Shown here: piece after piece, positions 3,214 through 49,361 of the stretch
Position numbering within the stretch: the first letter of the stretch is position 1
How the letters are laid out: every line of letters begins with the position of its first letter
Origin: Polyangiaceae bacterium
GTDB taxonomy: Bacteria > Myxococcota_A > Polyangia > Polyangiales > Polyangiaceae
DNA: 64,000 nt
Direction of reading: 5' to 3'
NCBI GenBank assembly: GCA_019637265.1
Contig: JAHBVY010000004.1
Span: 248,001 to 312,000 of the forward strand
The notes under the pieces: generated by a model
What the model saw: only the letters and a program-made list of their open reading frames with translations
Database searches by the model: none
What the model was told of the DNA's origin: nothing
Made by a program: the position numbers and the translations under genes

Positions 3214-5151
3214 CTACGGCGTGCGGCGGATCTCGAAGCTGCGGAGGTGACTGGGCGCCGCGCCCGCTGCGCCGAGGCTCACCCGCACGCGGTGCTGCGC
3301 CAGCTCTGGGAACGTGCAGCGCTGGCTGACGCCGCCCGCCGTGAGCACCACGTCGGCCCCCGCGCGCCGCACTTCGAGGCTCCCTGGCGTCCCGTTGGTC
3401 CCCGTAGGGGCAGGCCCCTGTGCCTGCCCCCCATGCTGAGGCCATGGGCAGGCCGCGCCACCCAGTTGCACCTCGAGCGATGCGTCGTCAGCGTGCAGCA
3501 CCACGAGCGGCGCGGGGCCCGCTTGCCATTGAATCGTCAGCGTGAGCGCGCGGTAGCGCGTGTCCGTGAGGTGCACCGCCCCGCGCCCGCTCAGGCTCAG
3601 CCCCTGGGCGTCGTAGCGCACCTCACCGCCCTCGCTGCCTCCGCTGCCGCGGAGCGGCGCGCTCGGCGTCACCTGGGTGCCGACGCCCGGCTGCGCGAGG
3701 AGCAGCGGACCCAAGTCACTCGCGTAGCTGCCCCGCACGTCGAAGCGGTGCCCCGTGAGCTGACCATCAGTCAGCCATACTAATGTGCCCCCGTCGAGGT
3801 TCAGCGCCTGCTCACTCGGCGGCGCCGGAGCTAGCGCGCGTGGCACGAAGGCGCCGTCCCACGCCGACAGCTCATACACGCGCCGCGCGCTGCCGCTGCC
3901 GGTGACGAGCCAGGGCGCGCCGCGGCTCGCGGGTAGCAACACGGGCTGCTCCAGGTCTCCTGGCAGCGGCGCGAGCGCGTGCGCTCGCCCCCACGCGTCG
4001 ATCCACGCGGCCGCCGCCTGCGGCCGCTCACAGGGACTGGCGCAAGCGCCCACCACCACCACCGAGCCACCTGGCAGGGGGGCGAAGCGCGCGGCGCCAG
4101 AGACGTGGAGGCGCGTGGTACCCAGGTGCTCGCTCGCGTCGCTGCTCAGCCACTCCACGGTTTGCACCGGTTGGTTCGTCGCGTCAGTGCCTCCGCCAAC
4201 GAAGACCCGGCCATCGTCGAGGACGAAGCTCTGCGGGTCGCGCCGGCGGTGCGTGAGCTCCGTGAGCCCCACGAGGCGCGCGCTGTGCGTCTCCGGGGAC
4301 ACCGCCTCCAAGGTGGCGAGCGCAGGGGTCTCCGGGCTGCGCCCGCCGATGAGCAGGGTGTCGCCGGAGCGGATCCGCACCGCTGCGTGGTTCGCTCGGG
4401 GTGAGATGGTGATCTGACGATTGGGATCGAAGCGGCCCAGCGCGGGGTCGTAGTGGCTCGCGCTGCGGAGCGGCGTGGCGAGGTTGAAGTCGCCGCCCAG
4501 TCGCTCGCGTGGGTCGACGCCGCCGCTCAACAGGAAACCGTCGCCGAACGGCGTGATCTGCGCCCCGGCGCGGGCGGGGAGCAGGCCACCTGGGACTTCG
4601 CGCGCCTCGCCGGTGCCCAGGCTGACCAGGGCGACACGCGCGGCTCCTGGGCTGGCGACGAAGCCTCCCGCGACGAGCAGCTCGCGCGTCTCCGGGTGGT
4701 AGCCCAGGCTGCTGTCCGCGCGTGGAAAGGTGCTCTGACTAAATAGAGCGCACGGCTCACGCGCGGGCCACAGGAGCAGCTCGGCGCCGCTCCGATTCGT
4801 GGGGGCGGCGCCATGCCAAGCACCGCGCGGCGAGCTCGCGCGCGCCTCCAGGGCGAGGGCGCCGAGCGGCAGGCCGAGCTCACGCGGCTCGCCCAGGGGC
4901 AGCGACTCGGCGCTGGTCAGGTCGCTGTCGAAGTCGCCCAGCGCCACCAGATCCAAGGTGGCGCTCGGGTCCACCGGGCAGCCGCTGAGCGTGTGGAGCT
5001 GGATTGGCTGCAGCACGTCGGGCTCCGGCTCCGGGTGGCACCCCGCGCCGAGCAGCGCGCCGAGCAGCGCCGCTCGAACGACTCGCGACGCGCCGGGCCA
5101 CGCTGGGGTGAGCCGCGCTGCGGGGCGAAGAGGGTGCAAGCGTTGGCCCAC
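3214..5151 (-). CDS. Kelch-like lipoprotein
   Basis: Predicted outer-surface or periplasmic lipoprotein of 645 residues with a GTG start. The N-terminus has a signal peptide ending in lipobox LGAGC. The middle shows repeated beta-propeller-like blades, each with a hydrophobic strand followed by Gly-Gly (FLLSGG, LLIGGRSP, VFVGGGTDA, VVVVG), as in kelch or galactose-oxidase propellers. The C-terminal third (from about residue 520) looks like a separate beta-sandwich (LTIQWQAGP, VVLHADD). A GTAGGGGC-family palindrome at 3404-3430 lies inside the coding sequence and encodes GGQAQGPAPTG. The gene is divergent from the Ser/Thr kinase that starts at 5202, 50 bp away, so the two may share a control region. 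The ligand is unknown. Confidence 0.75.
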   Translation of the reverse strand: MGQRLHPLRPAARLTPAWPGASRVVRAALLGALLGAGCHPEPEPDVLQPIQLHTLSGCPVDPSATLDLVALGDFDSDLTSAESLPLGEPRELGLPLGALALEARASSPRGAWHGAAPTNRSGAELLLWPAREPCALFSQSTFPRADSSLGYHPETRELLVAGGFVASPGAARVALVSLGTGEAREVPGGLLPARAGAQITPFGDGFLLSGGVDPRERLGGDFNLATPLRSASHYDPALGRFDPNRQITISPRANHAAVRIRSGDTLLIGGRSPETPALATLEAVSPETHSARLVGLTELTHRRRDPQSFVLDDGRVFVGGGTDATNQPVQTVEWLSSDASEHLGTTRLHVSGAARFAPLPGGSVVVVGACASPCERPQAAAAWIDAWGRAHALAPLPGDLEQPVLLPASRGAPWLVTGSGSARRVYELSAWDGAFVPRALAPAPPSEQALNLDGGTLVWLTDGQLTGHRFDVRGSYASDLGPLLLAQPGVGTQVTPSAPLRGSGGSEGGEVRYDAQGLSLSGRGAVHLTDTRYRALTLTIQWQAGPAPLVVLHADDASLEVQLGGAACPWPQHGGQAQGPAPTGTNGTPGSLEVRRAGADVVLTAGGVSQRCTFPELAQHRVRVSLGAAGAAPSHLRSFEIRRTP

Positions 5152-12249: not shown

Positions 12250-12315
12250 GGCAGGCACGGGGCGAATAAGGGCAGGCACGGGGTGATGAGGGCAGGCACG
12301 GGGGCCTGCCCCTAC
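12250..12315. repeat. Tandem GGCAGGCACGGGG units ending in a GTAGGGGC-family palindrome
   Basis: Three copies of GGCAGGCACGGGG start at 12250, 12271 and 12291, spaced about 21 bp. The last copy forms the left arm of a palindrome (GGGCAGGC ... GCCTGCCC) that ends in CCTAC at 12315. The family also occurs at 3404, 13970, 14016, 17295 and 20806. It lies between an unknown gene and mscS. Confidence 0.8.
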
Positions 12316-12368
12316 GGGGTCCGGGCGGCGCGCGGCGCGTTGGCGCGGGTGTGGTACGGCCTCCCGCG

Positions 12369-13973
12369 ATGCTCGGCCGCTCCCTCCCTCGCCCGCTGAT
12401 GTGGCTGCTCGGCGCGCTGCTCGGCCTGCTCCTCGTGCCGTGGCTGGTCACGGGCACCCTGGCCAACCCTGGCCTCGGCAAGCCACCGCCAGGGCTCGAC
12501 CTCTCCACGCCCCGACGCAGCGTGGACTATTTCCTCACGGCAACTCGTGACGGCCGCTTCGAGGACGCCGCCTTCGCCCTCGACCTCCAGGGCGTCGCGC
12601 CACAACATCAGCGGCGCGTTGGCGCCGCCGCCGCGCGGCAGCTCCGCTACGTGCTCGATCGCAAGCTGTGGCTCGACGTCCAGAGCTTGAGCGACGACAG
12701 CGCGGGGAACCCGGATGATGGCCTGCACACGGAGACCCTCGGCAGCGTGCCGCTCGGGAGCACGCAGGTGCCGATCCGGCTCCAGCGCGTGTCCACCGGG
12801 GCGGCGGCTAGCTGGCGCCTGTCGCGCGGCACCGTCTCCGCCGCCGAGGCGCTCTACGACGAGCACGGACCGGGGTGGCTGGGGCAGCACCTGCCCGAGT
12901 GGACGCAACGAACATCGCTGTTTCAAGTCGCGCTGTGGCAGTGGGCAGGGCTGCTGCTCAGCTTGGTGCTCAGCCTGCTCCTGGCGTTCGCGATCACGAG
13001 CCTCACGCTGAAGGTCCTCCGCCCCCTCGCGGAGCGCACCGTCAACAAGCTGGACGACGCGCTGGTGGTGCGCGCGCGCGGCCCGCTCCGGTGGCTGCTC
13101 ACCACGCTCCTGCTGACGCTCGCGGTGGAGTTCTTGAAGCTGCCGGCGCCCGCCGCCGCCGTGCTCGACAGCTCGCTCTCCGCCCTGGGGATCCTCGGCC
13201 TCGCCTGGCTAGCGACGCGCGCGGTGTACGCGATCGCCGACGTGGTGGAGCAAGCCCTCACGGTGGCGGATCCCAGCAATGAGGCGCTGATCCGCCACGG
13301 GCAGCGCACCCGCATCCGGGTGGCGCGCCAAGCGGTGAACGGCGTGATCTTCCTCGTCGCCGGGGCGCTCTTGCTCACCCAGTTCGACATGCTGCGCAAG
13401 CTCGGGGTATCGCTCTTGGCATCAGCAGGTGTGCTGACGGTCGTCGTGGGCCTCGCAGCGCAAAAATCCGTAGGGAATCTCATCGCCGGCATCCAGATCA
13501 CCACGGCGCAGCCGATCCGCATCGGGGACCGCGTGAAGATCGCGGAGGACATCGGGTGGATCGAGGAGATCACGCTGACCTACGTCACCATGAAGACGTG
13601 GGACGGGCGCCGCCGCGTGTTCCCCATCACCTACTTCCTCGAGAACCATTTCGAGAACTGGACCAAGACCTCCACCCAGAAGACCGCTCAGGTGCTGATC
13701 CACGCGGATCACCGGCTGCCGGTGACGCTGCTGCGTGAGGAGTTCATGCGGCTCTTGCAGTCGATCCCGGAGTGGGATGGCGACGTGGCGCGGCTGGTGG
13801 TGTTCGACGTCACGGCGCAGAGCTTGGTGCTGCGCGCCACCGCCTCGGCGGTGGACGCCGCCGCCGCCTTCGAGGTGTCCGCGGCGCTGCGCGAGGGCCT
13901 GATGGACTACCTGCGCGAGCTCGAAGGCGGCCGCTACCTACCGCGCACCCGGATCGATCTGCCCACCATGTAG
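12369..13973 (+). CDS. MscS-family mechanosensitive ion channel
   Basis: Inner-membrane channel of 534 residues from an ATG at 12369; a GTG at 12351 in the same frame is less likely. A signal or TM segment at the N-terminus precedes a polar domain of about 150 residues. Four further hydrophobic helices follow, ending in the pore helix and the conserved MscS beta domain: LTVVVGLAAQKSVGNLIAGI, RIGDRVKIAEDIGWIEEI, YVTMKTWDGRRRVFPITYFL. The C-terminal alpha/beta part is complete. Such channels release solutes on hypo-osmotic shock; the long N-terminal domain is typical of larger family members. The TAG stop codon is supplied by the first GTAGGGGC palindrome (13970-14003). Confidence 0.9.
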   Translation: MLGRSLPRPLMWLLGALLGLLLVPWLVTGTLANPGLGKPPPGLDLSTPRRSVDYFLTATRDGRFEDAAFALDLQGVAPQHQRRVGAAAARQLRYVLDRKLWLDVQSLSDDSAGNPDDGLHTETLGSVPLGSTQVPIRLQRVSTGAAASWRLSRGTVSAAEALYDEHGPGWLGQHLPEWTQRTSLFQVALWQWAGLLLSLVLSLLLAFAITSLTLKVLRPLAERTVNKLDDALVVRARGPLRWLLTTLLLTLAVEFLKLPAPAAAVLDSSLSALGILGLAWLATRAVYAIADVVEQALTVADPSNEALIRHGQRTRIRVARQAVNGVIFLVAGALLLTQFDMLRKLGVSLLASAGVLTVVVGLAAQKSVGNLIAGIQITTAQPIRIGDRVKIAEDIGWIEEITLTYVTMKTWDGRRRVFPITYFLENHFENWTKTSTQKTAQVLIHADHRLPVTLLREEFMRLLQSIPEWDGDVARLVVFDVTAQSLVLRATASAVDAAAAFEVSAALREGLMDYLRELEGGRYLPRTRIDLPTM

Positions 13974-14003
13974 GGGCGGCTCCCCGTGGCCGCCCTCGCC
14001 TAC
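13970..14003. repeat. GTAGGGGC-family palindrome, copy 1 of a pair
   Basis: Runs from GTAGGGGCGG to CGCCTAC with inner arms GGGGCGGC and GCCGCCC. The TAG in its first bases is the stop codon of the MscS gene. A near-identical copy follows at 14016, so the pair sits exactly between two convergent genes and may act as a bidirectional terminator. Confidence 0.9.
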
Positions 14004-14015
14004 ACAGCAACCCAT

Positions 14016-14049
14016 GTAGGGGCGGCTCCCCGTGGCCGCCCTCGCCTAC
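14016..14049. repeat. GTAGGGGC-family palindrome, copy 2 of a pair
   Basis: Same 34 bp as the copy at 13970. Its right end reads CCTAC; on the minus strand this gives TAG at 14048-14046, which is the stop codon of the lipoate-ligase-like gene. Both convergent genes therefore end inside repeat copies. Confidence 0.9.
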
Positions 14050-15146
14050 AGCCCGCTCAGGAGTGACACGAGATCGCTCACGCGCGCGCCCTCGAACGGC
14101 ACCTCGCCGAGCGCCGCGAGCGCCTCGGCCTCCGTGAGCGACGGAGAGGCCTCGAAGACGCGCGCGACGCGCGCGAGCGCCGACGCGCTGGTGAGCACAT
14201 CACCGCGCACCAGGAGCGCGCCGGAAGGCGCGCGCGCCGCCTCCAACACGCCGATCGGCACCTCCCGGGTACGCCAATCGAGGGCGGCTTCGTCCGTGTC
14301 TACGATGGAAGCCATGACAGAGCCGCTGACGGACTGCGCGGAAGGCTCCAAAGCAGCGCCGCTGACTGGCTGGCCCCCACCGACTCCGCAGCGCGGTGCC
14401 GTCCAACCCCCAAAAAATAAAAGGCTCGAGTCAGCATCACTGACGAGCAGCTCCCTGGACTGTGAGTCAGCATCACTGACAGACTGCGCGTCCTTCGTAT
14501 CACCGCTCATGGACGCGAGCTCGAGCGGCTCCGCGCCGCCCCAAGCGGCCAGCGCGCGCTCGTGGACGCGCTCTGCGATCTCCAAGGGACTGCGGTGTTT
14601 CCACGCGGAACCCAAGGCCTCGAGCAGCGGGCGGAGCGCCGCGGGGGGCTGGCGCCCCGCGGCGGGCGCCGGATGCAAAACGCCGACCAGCGCCTCCAGC
14701 AGCAGTACGCCGCCTGCCAGCGATTCCAACCCCAAAACCCCCGCGGGGCGCCTTTGAAGGTGCAGGCATTCGCGACCGAAGTAGCTGGCCGTGAGGCCCA
14801 CCCCAAAGTAGCCGCGGAGCAGGCCGCGCACGTTGCGATTGATGAAATTGCTCGGCGTTCCATCGGCGAACAGCGCCGCCGCGTGGGGTAAAGCGAGCAC
14901 GTGGTGGAGCGCTGGGCCGAGCACCCGCGCCTCGGTCCCCGTCGTGAAGCGGTGGACCACGCTCCCCGACGCGTGAGGCAGCCGCGCGCCGCGCTGAAGC
15001 GCGCCGAGCACCCACGCGTCCGCCTCGACCACGCTGGTCGCGAACACGGGGCGCTCCGCGCGCCGCGCCTGATCAGCGACTCGCGCCGCGAGCCCGAGCG
15101 CCTCCGTCAACTCACGCGCCGCCGGCGCGACCGCCAGCACGCTCAC
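14046..15146 (-). CDS. Lipoate-protein ligase-like protein with an internal low-complexity insert
   Basis: 366 residues from a GTG at 15146 that overlaps the TGA of the upstream di-iron gene (GTGA), which supports both the start and translational coupling. The N-terminal half resembles the biotin/lipoate ligase fold: VFATSVVEADAWVLGAL, VVHRFTTGTEARVLG, SNFINRNVRGLLRGY and TASYFGREC. The assignment rests on overall pattern and is tentative. Residues at about 225-290 are Ser/Asp rich (SVSDADSQS, LVSDADSSLL, SVSGSVMAS), encoded by AT-richer DNA (14290-14520). This insert includes a 25-nt perfect copy of the dispersed motif and repeated GTCAGTGATGCTGAC. The last 60 residues look structured again. 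Confidence 0.5.
   Translation of the reverse strand: MSVLAVAPAARELTEALGLAARVADQARRAERPVFATSVVEADAWVLGALQRGARLPHASGSVVHRFTTGTEARVLGPALHHVLALPHAAALFADGTPSNFINRNVRGLLRGYFGVGLTASYFGRECLHLQRRPAGVLGLESLAGGVLLLEALVGVLHPAPAAGRQPPAALRPLLEALGSAWKHRSPLEIAERVHERALAAWGGAEPLELASMSGDTKDAQSVSDADSQSRELLVSDADSSLLFFGGWTAPRCGVGGGQPVSGAALEPSAQSVSGSVMASIVDTDEAALDWRTREVPIGVLEAARAPSGALLVRGDVLTSASALARVARVFEASPSLTEAEALAALGEVPFEGARVSDLVSLLSGL
14393..14417. repeat. Dispersed motif, 25-nt copy inside a coding region
   Basis: GCGGTGCCGTCC followed directly by AACCCCC and AAAAAA. It is identical over 25 nt to the reverse complement of 49282-49306. It lies in frame inside the low-complexity insert of the lipoate-ligase-like gene, encoding part of LLFFGGWTAPRCG. 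Confidence 0.85.
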
Positions 15147-16415: not shown

Positions 16416-17180
16416 ATGCAGCACCCCACCTCACCACAGCGCTCAGTGACACAGCAGCGAGCGCCCACTCCGCGCGTGAGCCGCGCCGCTTCACCGGACG
16501 AGCCAGCGCCGCCCAGCGCTCGGTTGCTCCAGCTGCGGGAGGCAGCGCCTCGGCCGCGGGAGCCGCGCGTCTTCAACCAACGGCGCGCGCAGGAGACGTA
16601 CGCCGCGCTGCTCCGCGCCGCGACGCAGGTGTTCCAAGACGTGGGGTTCGAGGCCGCGCAGAGCACTGACATCGCGCTCGCCGCCAAGGTGAGCGTGGGC
16701 ACCTTCTATCGCTACTTCTCGGACAAGCGCCAAGCCTTCATCGAGGTGATCCAGCAGCACCTGGACGAGATGGATGAGCGCGTCATCGCGCGGCTCACCG
16801 CGGAGCTGTTCGGCGCCGGCCGTGGTCCGGAGAACCGCGCCGCCGCCGTGGAGGTCACCCTCAAGGTGCTGTTCGAGCAAGCCGCGCGGCACCCCGCGCT
16901 GCAGCGCGTGTTCTTCGCGATGTCGCTGCGCGACCCCGAGGTCGCACAAATCCGCGCGGCATTTGAGCAGCGCACGCGGAGCGCGCTCACCCTCATCATC
17001 CGCGAAATCGTCCCCGAGGATCGCGTCCCCGACGCGGCCGCCGCGGCCGCGGTGATCCAAGCCGCCGCCGAGGGCGTGGCCTTCTCCCTCGCGTGCGAAG
17101 CGAGCGAGGCCCAGAGCGCCGCCCTGCGCGAAGCGCTCGGCACCATGATCACCCGCTACCTGTTCGCCGAAGCAAAGTAG
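16416..17180 (+). CDS. TetR-family transcriptional regulator
   Basis: 254 residues. A disordered basic/Pro-rich N-terminus of about 55 residues precedes the DNA-binding domain: AALLRAATQVFQDVGFEAAQ, STDIALAAKVSVGTFYRYFSDKRQAFIEV. The C-terminal half is helical and includes a TetR-C-like core (VFFAMSLRDPEVAQIRAAFE). Start at 16416 is an ATG; the long N-terminal tail means an internal start is possible. It is divergent from the di-iron gene and probably autoregulates through the 16311-16357 repeats. Downstream are a hairpin and a palindromic repeat rather than a clear terminator. Confidence 0.87.
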   Translation: MQHPTSPQRSVTQQRAPTPRVSRAASPDEPAPPSARLLQLREAAPRPREPRVFNQRRAQETYAALLRAATQVFQDVGFEAAQSTDIALAAKVSVGTFYRYFSDKRQAFIEVIQQHLDEMDERVIARLTAELFGAGRGPENRAAAVEVTLKVLFEQAARHPALQRVFFAMSLRDPEVAQIRAAFEQRTRSALTLIIREIVPEDRVPDAAAAAAVIQAAAEGVAFSLACEASEAQSAALREALGTMITRYLFAEAK

Positions 17181-17212
17181 CTCCCCTTCGCGGTGCTCCA
17201 GTCGCCGACATG

Positions 17213-17244
17213 AGCACGGCGAACGGCAGCCCGTGGGTCGTGCT
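17213..17244. repeat. Standalone AGSACGAC hairpin
   Basis: Arms AGCACGGC and GTCGTGCT (8 bp with one G-T pair), with an inner ACGG/CCGT stem and loop CAGC. It belongs to the hairpin family that opens the large elements at 38857 and 44700. It lies downstream of the TetR gene. Confidence 0.65.
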
Positions 17245-17294
17245 AGGTTCTGGGGATGTTGGACGCCAGCTCATGGGTGTCATCCAGTAGGTGT

Positions 17295-22423: not shown

Positions 22424-22443
22424 ACTGGAGCGGTGCCGTCCAA

Positions 22444-22554
22444 CCCCCTGAAGAACATGGGCGGAGCGAGTCAGCGCCGCACTGCTCCGAGGACGACTCG
22501 AAGCGACTCAGCGCACCCCCTGAAGAACATGGGCGGAGCGAGTCAGCGCCGCAC
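22444..22554. repeat. Perfect 39-bp direct repeat, 72-bp period
   Basis: The 39-bp unit starts CCCCCTGAAGAACATGGGCG. Copies occupy 22444-22482 and 22516-22554 with a 33-bp spacer. The second copy contains the last codons and stop of the DAHP-synthase-like gene; the first lies just after the gene. The left flank is GCGGTGCCGTCCAA, a copy of the dispersed motif. Confidence 0.85.
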
Positions 22555-35425: not shown

Positions 35426-35535
35426 CAGGGCACCAACGGCCGGTGTCAGGATGGGCTCCAAGGGGGTTGGGGGTTGGCTCACGCTCGGCGCCCCCGGGTG
35501 ACGCTCGCGGGGTAAGCCGTACGGCGAATCACAGC

Positions 35536-35559
35536 GCGGTTCCGTCCAACCCCCAAAAA
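35536..35559. repeat. Dispersed motif, GCGGTTCCGTCC copy
   Basis: GCGGTTCCGTCC followed by AACCCCC and an A run, one change from the 25-nt copies at 14393 and 49282. Confidence 0.8.
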
Positions 35560-38796: not shown

Positions 38797-38856
38797 CCGT
38801 TCCCATCACCTCTCGGGCGGCTTGCCTCCTAGCTAGCAAGCCAGTCATCGGTCCCT

Positions 38857-39015
38857 AGGACGACAAACGGTTTGCCGTTGGTCGTCCTCAAATCCGACAG
38901 CTTTCGCTGTGTGAAGGGAAGTAGCACCGAACAGAGGACCAGGGAAACCGAGCCCTCGCTCCGCATGGGGGCGGTTCCCTGGTCCGTCTCGCGGCAAACT
39001 GATCGCCGCTCTAGG
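38857..39015 (+). ncRNA. Three-hairpin intergenic element, copy 1 (upstream of bioD)
   Basis: Hairpin 1 has arms AGGACGAC and GTCGTCCT with an inner AACGG/CCGTT stem. Hairpin 2 (38936-38985) has about 14 pairs (GGACCAGGGA... with ...TCCCTGGTCC). Hairpin 3 is GCGGC with GCCGC around AAACTGATC. The order, spacing and loops match the copy at 44700. The last conserved base lies 41 bp before the bioD ATG, exactly as for dapF. It could be a cis-regulatory RNA, a small RNA or a mobile repeat; ncRNA is used only as the closest category. Confidence 0.7.
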
Positions 39016-39055: not shown

Positions 39056-39721
39056 ATGAAGGGCTGTGTGGTGCTCGGCGCCGGGACTGGTTTGGGCAAA
39101 ACGTACTTGGCCTGTGCGCTGGCACGCGCAGCTCGAGAGCGCGGGACCACCCGCGCGCTCAAGCCGGTGGAGACGGGCGTGCCCCACGCCGCTGTTTCAC
39201 GTGAAACATCTCGCTCCGCCGCCGACGCACAGGCGCTGGCGGACGCCGCCGGGCACCCCTACATCGCGCCCCATCGCTCGCTGGAGCTACCCGCCTCACC
39301 CCACCTCGCAACCCCCGAGAGCCACCCCATCGATCTCGACGCGGCGCTCGAGTGGACTCGAGAGGCCGCAGCCGGCGCTGACTACGTCGTCGTCGAGACC
39401 GCGGGCGGCGCCTTCACCCCGGTGAACCTCCAGCAGTACAACATCGATCTCGCCGCGCGCCTGAGCAACGCCCTGAACCTACCGTGGCTGCTCGTGGTGG
39501 AAGACCGCCTGGGCACCCTGCACGACGCCCTCGCCGTACTCTGGGGCGCCACCGCGCGCCAAGCTCCAGCCCCAGTGGCCCTCGTCGTCTCCCACGTCAC
39601 CGACCACCCTCCAGGCCTCGGTAACGCCCACGAGCTAACGCGCCTCCAACCAGCCCCCGTCTTCGACCTGAAGCACGGCACAAGCCCCGATGTGGCGCTG
39701 ATCGAGCTGCTCTTCGGCTAG
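39056..39721 (+). CDS. bioD: Dethiobiotin synthetase
   Basis: 221-residue ATP-dependent carboxylase that closes the ureido ring of dethiobiotin from 7,8-diaminopelargonic acid. P-loop GAGTGLGKTYLACAL is intact, as are the substrate segment ALKPVETGV and a VVETAGGAFTPV segment where many enzymes have VEGAGGLLVP. The carboxylate/Mg residues in the P-loop region are in place. An exact parS palindrome (39193-39208) is embedded in frame and encodes AVSRET in a surface-like loop after KPVETGVPHA, so ParB binding inside a gene is likely. The start follows the structured element by 40 bp. Confidence 0.92.
   Translation: MKGCVVLGAGTGLGKTYLACALARAARERGTTRALKPVETGVPHAAVSRETSRSAADAQALADAAGHPYIAPHRSLELPASPHLATPESHPIDLDAALEWTREAAAGADYVVVETAGGAFTPVNLQQYNIDLAARLSNALNLPWLLVVEDRLGTLHDALAVLWGATARQAPAPVALVVSHVTDHPPGLGNAHELTRLQPAPVFDLKHGTSPDVALIELLFG
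39193..39208. promoter_or_regulatory. parS centromere site inside bioD
   Basis: TGTTTCACGTGAAACA, identical to the site at 37769, lies within the bioD reading frame (AVSRET). The distance between the two sites is 1424 bp. Confidence 0.92.
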
Positions 39722-44581: not shown

Positions 44582-44897
44582 CCTGGAGCCAGCTCCCATC
44601 GTCTCCCGGCGCCTTCGTTCTGCCGCGGAGCGCCGCTCAGCGCACCCGAACCCCCCAAAACAAGCCTGAAGCCATAATACACTGCGGCCACGTGTCGCCA
44701 GGACGACAACGGCTTGCCGTTGGTCGTCCTCAAATCCAGCAACTAGAGCGACGCGAAGGAAGCAGCGCCGAGCAGAGGACCAGGAAAACCGCGCCCTCGC
44801 CCCGCACGGGGGCGGTTTCCCGGGTCCGTCTTTCGGCGAACTGATCGCCGCTCTAGGCTCGCGGGGACGACGGCGTTTTCGGTAAGCTCCGGTCGGC
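44582..44897. other. Intergenic region upstream of dapF
   Basis: 316 bp. It holds a CCCCCCAAAA tract (44649-44661) and then the three-hairpin element (44700-44857). No reading frame of note is present. Confidence 0.6.
44700..44857 (+). ncRNA. Three-hairpin intergenic element, copy 2 (upstream of dapF)
   Basis: Hairpin 1: AGGACGAC/GTCGTCCT with inner AACGG/CCGTT and loop CTTG. Hairpin 2: from GGACCAGGAAAACCGC to GCGGTTTCCCGGGTCC. Hairpin 3: CGGCGA/TCGCCG around ACTGA. The final TCGCCGCTCTAGG is shared with copy 1. It ends 41 bp before the dapF ATG. Differences between copies in the stems tend to keep pairing, which suggests selection on structure or recent spread from a structured source. Function is unproven. 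Confidence 0.7.
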
Positions 44898-49161: not shown

Positions 49162-49281
49162 GAATCACTGACGATTGACGGATCCCTCTGCCGGGCGCTG
49201 TGTGCTTCGGTCTTCCGGGGTGTTGGCGCTCGGTGTGCGAGGCGTGGACGAACGCGTGGACCGCAGGACCCTGCGCGTTTG

Positions 49282-49306
49282 TTTTTTGGGGGTTGGACGG
49301 CACCGC
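49282..49306. repeat. Dispersed motif, 25-nt copy
   Basis: TTTTTTGGGGGTTGGACGGC then ACCGC, the exact reverse complement of 14393-14417. It lies about 125 bp upstream of leuB. Confidence 0.85.
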
Positions 49307-49361
49307 GATGGGTGACGCTGCTCGATCATGCGGGTCGGCGACGCGCGGCGTTGGGGTGCCC

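Follow-up and report, generated by a model that had tools for sequence, protein, structure and literature searches.

A family of CTAG-bounded hairpin elements of about 160 bp in Myxococcota, probably moved in trans

Introduction

The window, i.e. the whole stretch of 64,000 nucleotides that was analysed (contig JAHBVY010000004.1 of a Polyangiaceae bacterium, Myxococcota), contains two intergenic copies of a hairpin-rich element, one upstream of a bioD-like open reading frame (ORF) and one upstream of dapF. In both cases, 41 bp separate the end of the element from the ATG, at 39056 and 44898, respectively. This raises the question of whether the element is a regulatory leader RNA or a mobile DNA repeat. 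We consider, with a probability of roughly 0.85, that the copies are DNA elements of about 160 bp without a transposase gene, which in a relative are inserted at CTAG and which are likely moved by a transposase encoded elsewhere. We read the element as a new family in Myxococcota that resembles miniature inverted-repeat transposable elements (MITEs), and its place near bioD and dapF is probably incidental. The basis for this is the copy number, the fixed limits, the terminal repeats, the insertion at CTAG in the relative G060, the in-frame insertions in the window's own genome (G000) and the kept pairing of the hairpins. Other G-numbers denote genomes of relatives.

Copy number and distribution

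A DNA search of G000 gave 51 matches (from the best 40 of 82 candidates), the weakest of which are hits to the palindromic hairpin on the reverse strand. Thirty places reach an E-value of 6e-24 or better against the bioD-side copy, so that chance is excluded by the DNA search alone. A covariance model built from 28 complete G000 copies returned 60 matches in the same genome (best 150 of 5468 candidates). The 28 model copies score 153-200 bits, as they must, and five more matches reach 89-125 bits; the weaker ones include antisense matches of the same places. In total, 28 strong, full-length copies are present in G000, along with five or more weaker ones, and both orientations occur. The limits of the element were set from 30 aligned copies, including the 28 complete ones, which share nearly identical start and end bases and measure 155-162 bp (25 of them 159-161 bp). 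This is too short for a transposase gene. Some G000 copies are decayed or lack parts.

With this first model, matches were found in 3 of 39 genomes searched, the own genome included. A model built from three genera gave matches at an E-value of 1e-4 or less in 5 of 108 family genomes, again including the own genome: G000, G060, G010, G042 and G003. These carriers represent five genera, each with its own version of the element. Counts from the three-genus model cover the best 28 candidates per genome at most and are lower bounds for G000, G010 and G060. All 28 G060 places obtained in this way are 160 bp long, which is also the commonest length among the copies examined (18 of 30 in G000, 20 of 33 in G010 and 21 of 21 in G060), while copies in G003 and G042 vary in length.

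The element is most abundant in G060, where a 20-bp terminal-repeat pattern, allowing up to 3 mismatches, matches 935 times, compared to 2 matches for the reversed pattern. As each copy has two ends, this corresponds to roughly 450 copies. In a profile search covering 754 kb of this genome, or about 9%, 46 matches were full and 39 partial, and some of the partial ones are pieces of a single interrupted copy; lengths of 150-161 bp also occur there, and one copy measures 207 bp. Contigs C41 and C32 of G060 end inside an element copy, and the element repeats probably break the assembly at these points.

A pattern search of named genomes yielded 25 stretches: 14 in SZUA-265, 3 in AS06rmzACSIP_372 and 8 in others. 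Inspection by eye showed that several of the 17 stretches in the first two groups are right ends only or old copies, and that none of the other eight contains the element. A G060 copy used as query had no match among plasmids and phages, and the single match among viral contigs is a bare 20-mer without the element.

Insertion at CTAG

Comparison of occupied and unoccupied copies of other repeats in G060 revealed that the element has inserted precisely at CTAG, is flanked by this tetranucleotide at either end and occurs in both orientations. More generally, the element is bounded by CTAG or by decayed forms of it. Its ends form imperfect terminal inverted repeats, which agree at 18 of 20 positions in G060 and 15 of 20 in G010, and at only 13 of 20 in G003 and G000; for comparison, 3% of random pairs sharing CTAG have 12 or more matches. 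The G060-type terminal repeats read like CTAGAGCASCRATCAGGTTG.

Several G060 copies carry at their inner CTAG another repeat of about 150 bp, which is also found by itself at other places; 23 stretches in the 754 kb match it. Examples are L324 (11203-11519, on C376) and C101:47330-47659 (in L335). This suggests that a second family, likewise targeting CTAG, is nested in the first.

Anatomy and folding of the element

From left to right, the element consists of CTAG, hairpin 1, a linker, an inner repeat starting CTAGAGC, a spacer, hairpin 2, the sequence GGCRAACTGATCG and the right end GCTCTAG. The preliminary description had located both intergenic window copies, their hairpins and their 41-bp distance to the ATGs correctly; the refined limits are 38855-39014 and 44698-44856. 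The window contains the following features:

38855..39014, forward strand: copy 1 of the element, CTAG to CTAG (covariance model, 161.6 bits)
38857..38888, forward strand: copy 1, hairpin 1, overlapping the left terminal repeat
38897..38910, forward strand: copy 1, small local hairpin ACAGC-TTTC-GCTGT, in place of the CTAGAGC of most other copies
38936..38985, forward strand: copy 1, hairpin 2
38991..39009, forward strand: copy 1, hairpin 3, with loop AAACTGATC
39011..39014, forward strand: copy 1, right-hand CTAG
39056..39721, forward strand: neighbouring bioD-like ORF (Pfam AAA_26; the name bioD is our presumption)
44698..44856, forward strand: copy 2 of the element, with CCAG as left and CTAG as right tetranucleotide (covariance model, 161.5 bits)
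44700..44730, forward strand: copy 2, hairpin 1
44743..44753, forward strand: copy 2, inner repeat, starting CTAGAGC; 5' strand of the closing helix
44777..44827, forward strand: copy 2, hairpin 2
44846..44856, forward strand: copy 2, right end CGCCGCTCTAG; 3' strand of the closing helix
44898..45734, forward strand: neighbouring dapF (Pfam DAP_epimerase)
17111..17246, reverse strand: third, degenerate copy (G000:C16:265111-265246; covariance model, 47.5 bits, E 3.4e-6)

Between the inner repeat and the right end, 11 bp can form, resulting in a long-range closing helix round hairpin 2. Alternatively, the right end can pair within hairpin 3; where a copy has an inner CTAGAGCGGCG, its 3' end is able to close the long-range helix instead. 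Copy 1 has lost the inner repeat and has the small local hairpin in its place.

In the structural alignment of G000 copies, from which the incomplete copies L021 and L028 were left out, 12 of 44 pairs show a two-sided change that keeps the pairing, a number reached by none of 500 shuffles. Hairpins 1 and 2 keep their pairing through such changes, as the preliminary description had noticed for hairpin 2. Its series of three consecutive hairpins holds for these two, whereas hairpin 3 is weaker and none of its five pairs has a two-sided change. The closing helix is the weakest helix, with 86.5% of cells paired; between genera, it changes from GCGGCG/CGCCGC to GCACCG/CGGTGC. Across 32 chosen copies from three genera, 27 of 44 pairs show a two-sided, pair-keeping change in an alignment that was fitted to the structure and therefore leans towards it.

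Hairpin 1 also occurs alone: at L157 (G000:C1:869174-869233), it lies between two CTAGs as a 36-bp near-perfect palindrome, directly followed by a GTAGGGGCAGG-like repeat.

In-frame insertions in genes

Three copies in G000 lie inside ORFs with the frame kept and add about 52 residues that are absent from relatives; the affected proteins are TrpC, an O-antigen-ligase-like and an M56-like protein. The TrpC of a relative (P0002), which is 86% identical (alignment A5), has a 52-column gap at the element site. The G010 homologue of the Wzy_C (O-antigen ligase) protein, 54-58% identical over three aligned pieces, lacks the 52 residues at the element. For the M56-like protein, whose Pfam score of 28.6 is below the cut-off of 31, the stretch is missing in two ORFs of G001 and in one each of G022 and G010. 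A possible fourth genic copy lies at the C-terminus of another G000 ORF. A net insertion of 156 bp agrees with the addition of one element together with one extra CTAG. Compared with shuffled copies, the number of stop-free frames per copy is 2.2 versus 1.3 in G000, 1.5 versus 1.0 in G010 and 0.8 versus 1.0 in G060.

These data invite the view that the element is a protein-tolerated mobile hairpin, which settled on a net 156 bp (52 codons) in three genera and lodges in working genes as a spliced-in peptide, as an independent Myxococcota counterpart of the Rickettsia palindromic elements (RPEs). We consider this unlikely, since 40 of 42 testable G060 copies are intergenic and the two in genes both contain an in-frame stop, G060 has no excess of stop-free frames, and the copies in G003 and G042 are of mixed length.

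The TrpC proteins of G000 (P0001) and P0002 share a further stretch of about 25 residues before the element site, which is missing in six other aligned TrpCs and is perhaps an older insertion.

Genomic context and alternative explanations

Gene context was assigned by a home-made gene caller for 32 G000 copies. The right-hand neighbour presents its start to the element in 15 cases and its stop in another 15 (no call in 2); on the left-hand side, there are 16 stops and 15 starts (1 without call). In 5 of the 32 copies, the element's CTAG supplies the TAG stop of the neighbour. In G060, 42 of the 46 full copies were testable, the other 4 being near contig ends, and 40 of these 42 are intergenic. 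For comparison, 100 of 272 sampled CTAG sites lie within genes, as do 443 of 600 random positions. As the CTAG sample includes the element's own CTAGs, the contrast is if anything understated. Thus, surviving copies are mostly intergenic. GC skew was sampled over the length of contig C1 and, on other contigs, in the neighbourhood of copies. Relative to this skew, a hand tally of the element strand in 33 copies gave 19 to 14, which indicates no clear strand bias.

Control of bioD, dapF and further genes by a riboswitch or other 5'-leader RNA would explain the equal spacing in the window and the covarying stems, and right-hand distances of 41-43 bp are found in 5 of 23 usable G000 copies (without L021, L028, the two copies without call, and distances under 10 bp). 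This excess is mild, was noticed after the fact (smoothed bootstrap P 0.015), involves three starts and two stops, and is left unexplained. Such a leader, which the preliminary description had proposed as a possible link between biotin and diaminopimelate genes, is nevertheless hardly tenable: only 15 of 32 right-hand neighbours present a start, these starts lie at 21 to 772 bp elsewhere in G000, copies occur inside ORFs and at stop codons, and the element is absent upstream of dapF in three relatives (G001, which was aligned, and G003 and G010, for which 260 bp were examined). No Rfam family matches the element, in agreement with the earlier opinion that it is not a described riboswitch. The other possibility raised there, a small mobile repeat that prefers leaders, fares well as to mobility, although starts and stops are equally frequent and a leader preference is not seen. 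The stems do covary among the aligned copies; a position about 41 bp before start codons is not general. Since the covariation is real and yet resides in a mobile element, it does not separate a leader RNA from a mobile repeat. A mobile element that hosts now keep for transcription termination or mRNA stabilisation between genes, with the pairing under RNA selection, would fit the stable, covarying hairpins and the intergenic share in G060, which is only 172 of 272 for sampled CTAG sites. The same depletion from genes would result from purifying selection, the G000 copies show no orientation preference, and copies decay and lose parts, all of which makes this explanation distinctly improbable.

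Another way of accounting for the kept hairpin pairing is a repetitive extragenic palindrome (REP) or bacterial interspersed mosaic element (BIME). Here, a structured spacer would separate two hairpins, each with a tetranucleotide tail on its outer side, and a Y1 tyrosine transposase of the RAYT (REP-associated tyrosine transposase) or IS200/IS605 type would mobilise the element in single-stranded form. In the parts of PMC3733652 that describe them, head-head REP dimers have a similar layout, and GTAG REPs likewise provide TAG stops to neighbouring genes, as CTAG does in the 5 copies mentioned above. However, the tail of the element is CTAG and not GTAG, which is found at only 2 of 28 left ends in G000, 1 of 33 in G010 and 0 of 21 in G060. 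The 19 to 14 distribution relative to GC skew does not favour this explanation either. Furthermore, the element has terminal inverted repeats and a duplicated target, which to our knowledge are not features of the Y1-moved REP class. We therefore regard a REP- or BIME-like element as very unlikely, also because Y1_Tnp (PF01797) is absent from G000, G003 and G010. The domain was present in 8 of 25 genomes searched, with G042 and G060 outside that test; for the three carriers within it, a Y1 transposase is rejected as helper.

Movement by a transposase encoded elsewhere is our preferred reading; several points weigh against it. The unoccupied sites in G060 are other copies of dispersed repeats and not the same locus in another strain. 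End tetranucleotides other than CTAG match between left and right no better than expected by chance (permutation p 1.0, 0.49 and 1.0 in G000, G010 and G060; L056 and L057, which have no anchor, left out), and in G010 the ends read CTAG in 5 of 33 left and 14 of 33 right cases, compared to 26 of 33 for the inner repeat, which simple decay does not explain well. No copy was detected in G001, which belongs to the same genus and is 82% complete. In addition, kept folding is not expected of a plain miniature element of the DDE type. Finally, no autonomous copy or helper was found, in a look limited to about 215 bp beside 12 ends and to the 754 kb of G060; no search for DDE-type transposases was made.

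The possible helper transposase

The end pattern marks at least 30 loci in three genomes, 12 of which were examined. Within the 754 kb of G060, four pairs of terminal repeats are 250-4000 bp apart. Three of these come from a single cluster of degenerate copies on C45 and are spaced at 302-458 bp; the ends of the fourth, on C205, are 1481 bp apart and enclose ORFs which we take to encode the ribosomal proteins L35 and L20.

The element would be moved by DDE-type cut-and-paste transposition in trans, carried out by a CTAG-targeting enzyme. As a guess, the helper may be an IS5-like enzyme, because members of the IS5 family target CTAG or YTAR and duplicate it on insertion, according to passages in PMC10379815 and PMC10359306. 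The 4-bp CTAG duplication at the element is the point of likeness, while the link to the enzyme is a guess and no IS5-type transposase search was made. The stems may be kept because transposition needs a folded strand, or because template switching corrects palindromes.

Relation to known elements

Bacterial MITEs, as outlined in part of PMC10969869, are short, lack a transposase gene, have terminal inverted repeats and a short target duplication, and are mostly intergenic, with occasional in-frame gene fusions. The element shares these features, apart from a known helper: it is short and without transposase gene, has terminal inverted repeats and the CTAG duplication, and is mostly intergenic and sometimes in frame in genes. 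Unlike MITEs, it has no identified parent insertion sequence, it keeps its fold, with 160 bp as the commonest length in G000, G010 and G060, while the sequence diverges, and it contains an inner copy of its right end.

By description, the element is also similar to the RPEs, which the relevant parts of PMC10969869 and PMC3733652 present as palindromic units of about 150 bp that lie in frame inside unrelated protein genes. In contrast to RPEs, it belongs to a different phylum, most copies are intergenic, and its ends read CTAG or decayed forms, whereas the R. conorii RPE ends with CGTC (as given in PMC3733652). RPE-like in-frame insertion concerns three G000 genes and is not typical of G060. 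The GTAG- and CGTC-tagged REPs and REP dimers described in the same source share hairpins with an outer-end tetranucleotide, a structured spacer, a terminal TAG that serves as stop codon and some copies within ORFs. They differ by their tag, by units of 20-40 bp instead of 160 bp, and by the Y1 transposase that is missing from the three carriers tested. In the main text of PMC3733652, the strings 'ctag' and 'myxococc' each occur 0 times. We found no description of the element family in the open-licence literature on MITEs, REPs and myxobacterial or Polyangiales repeats.

The family adds to Myxococcota a mobile repeat with roughly 450 copies in one genome, exact insertion at CTAG and in-frame peptides in genes such as trpC. 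It also provides a further bacterial setting for a question raised by the RPEs, namely whether such insertions leave the proteins functional. Together with the several versions of the element, the pairs of occupied and empty sites should help to trace the missing transposase. As a caution, covarying stems upstream of start codons need not be regulatory RNA.

Other repeats in the window

Hairpin repeats containing GTAGGGGC are located at 13966-14050 and at 3397-3429 with 12290-12322; they presumably resemble REPs, though no Y1 transposase was found in G000. A second dispersed repeat of about 28-35 bp, reading GCGGTGCCGTCCAACCCCCAAAAA, occurs in both orientations at 14387-14421, 22426-22453, 35532-35559 and 49278-49310, and a similar sequence adjoins the element copies L008 and L026.
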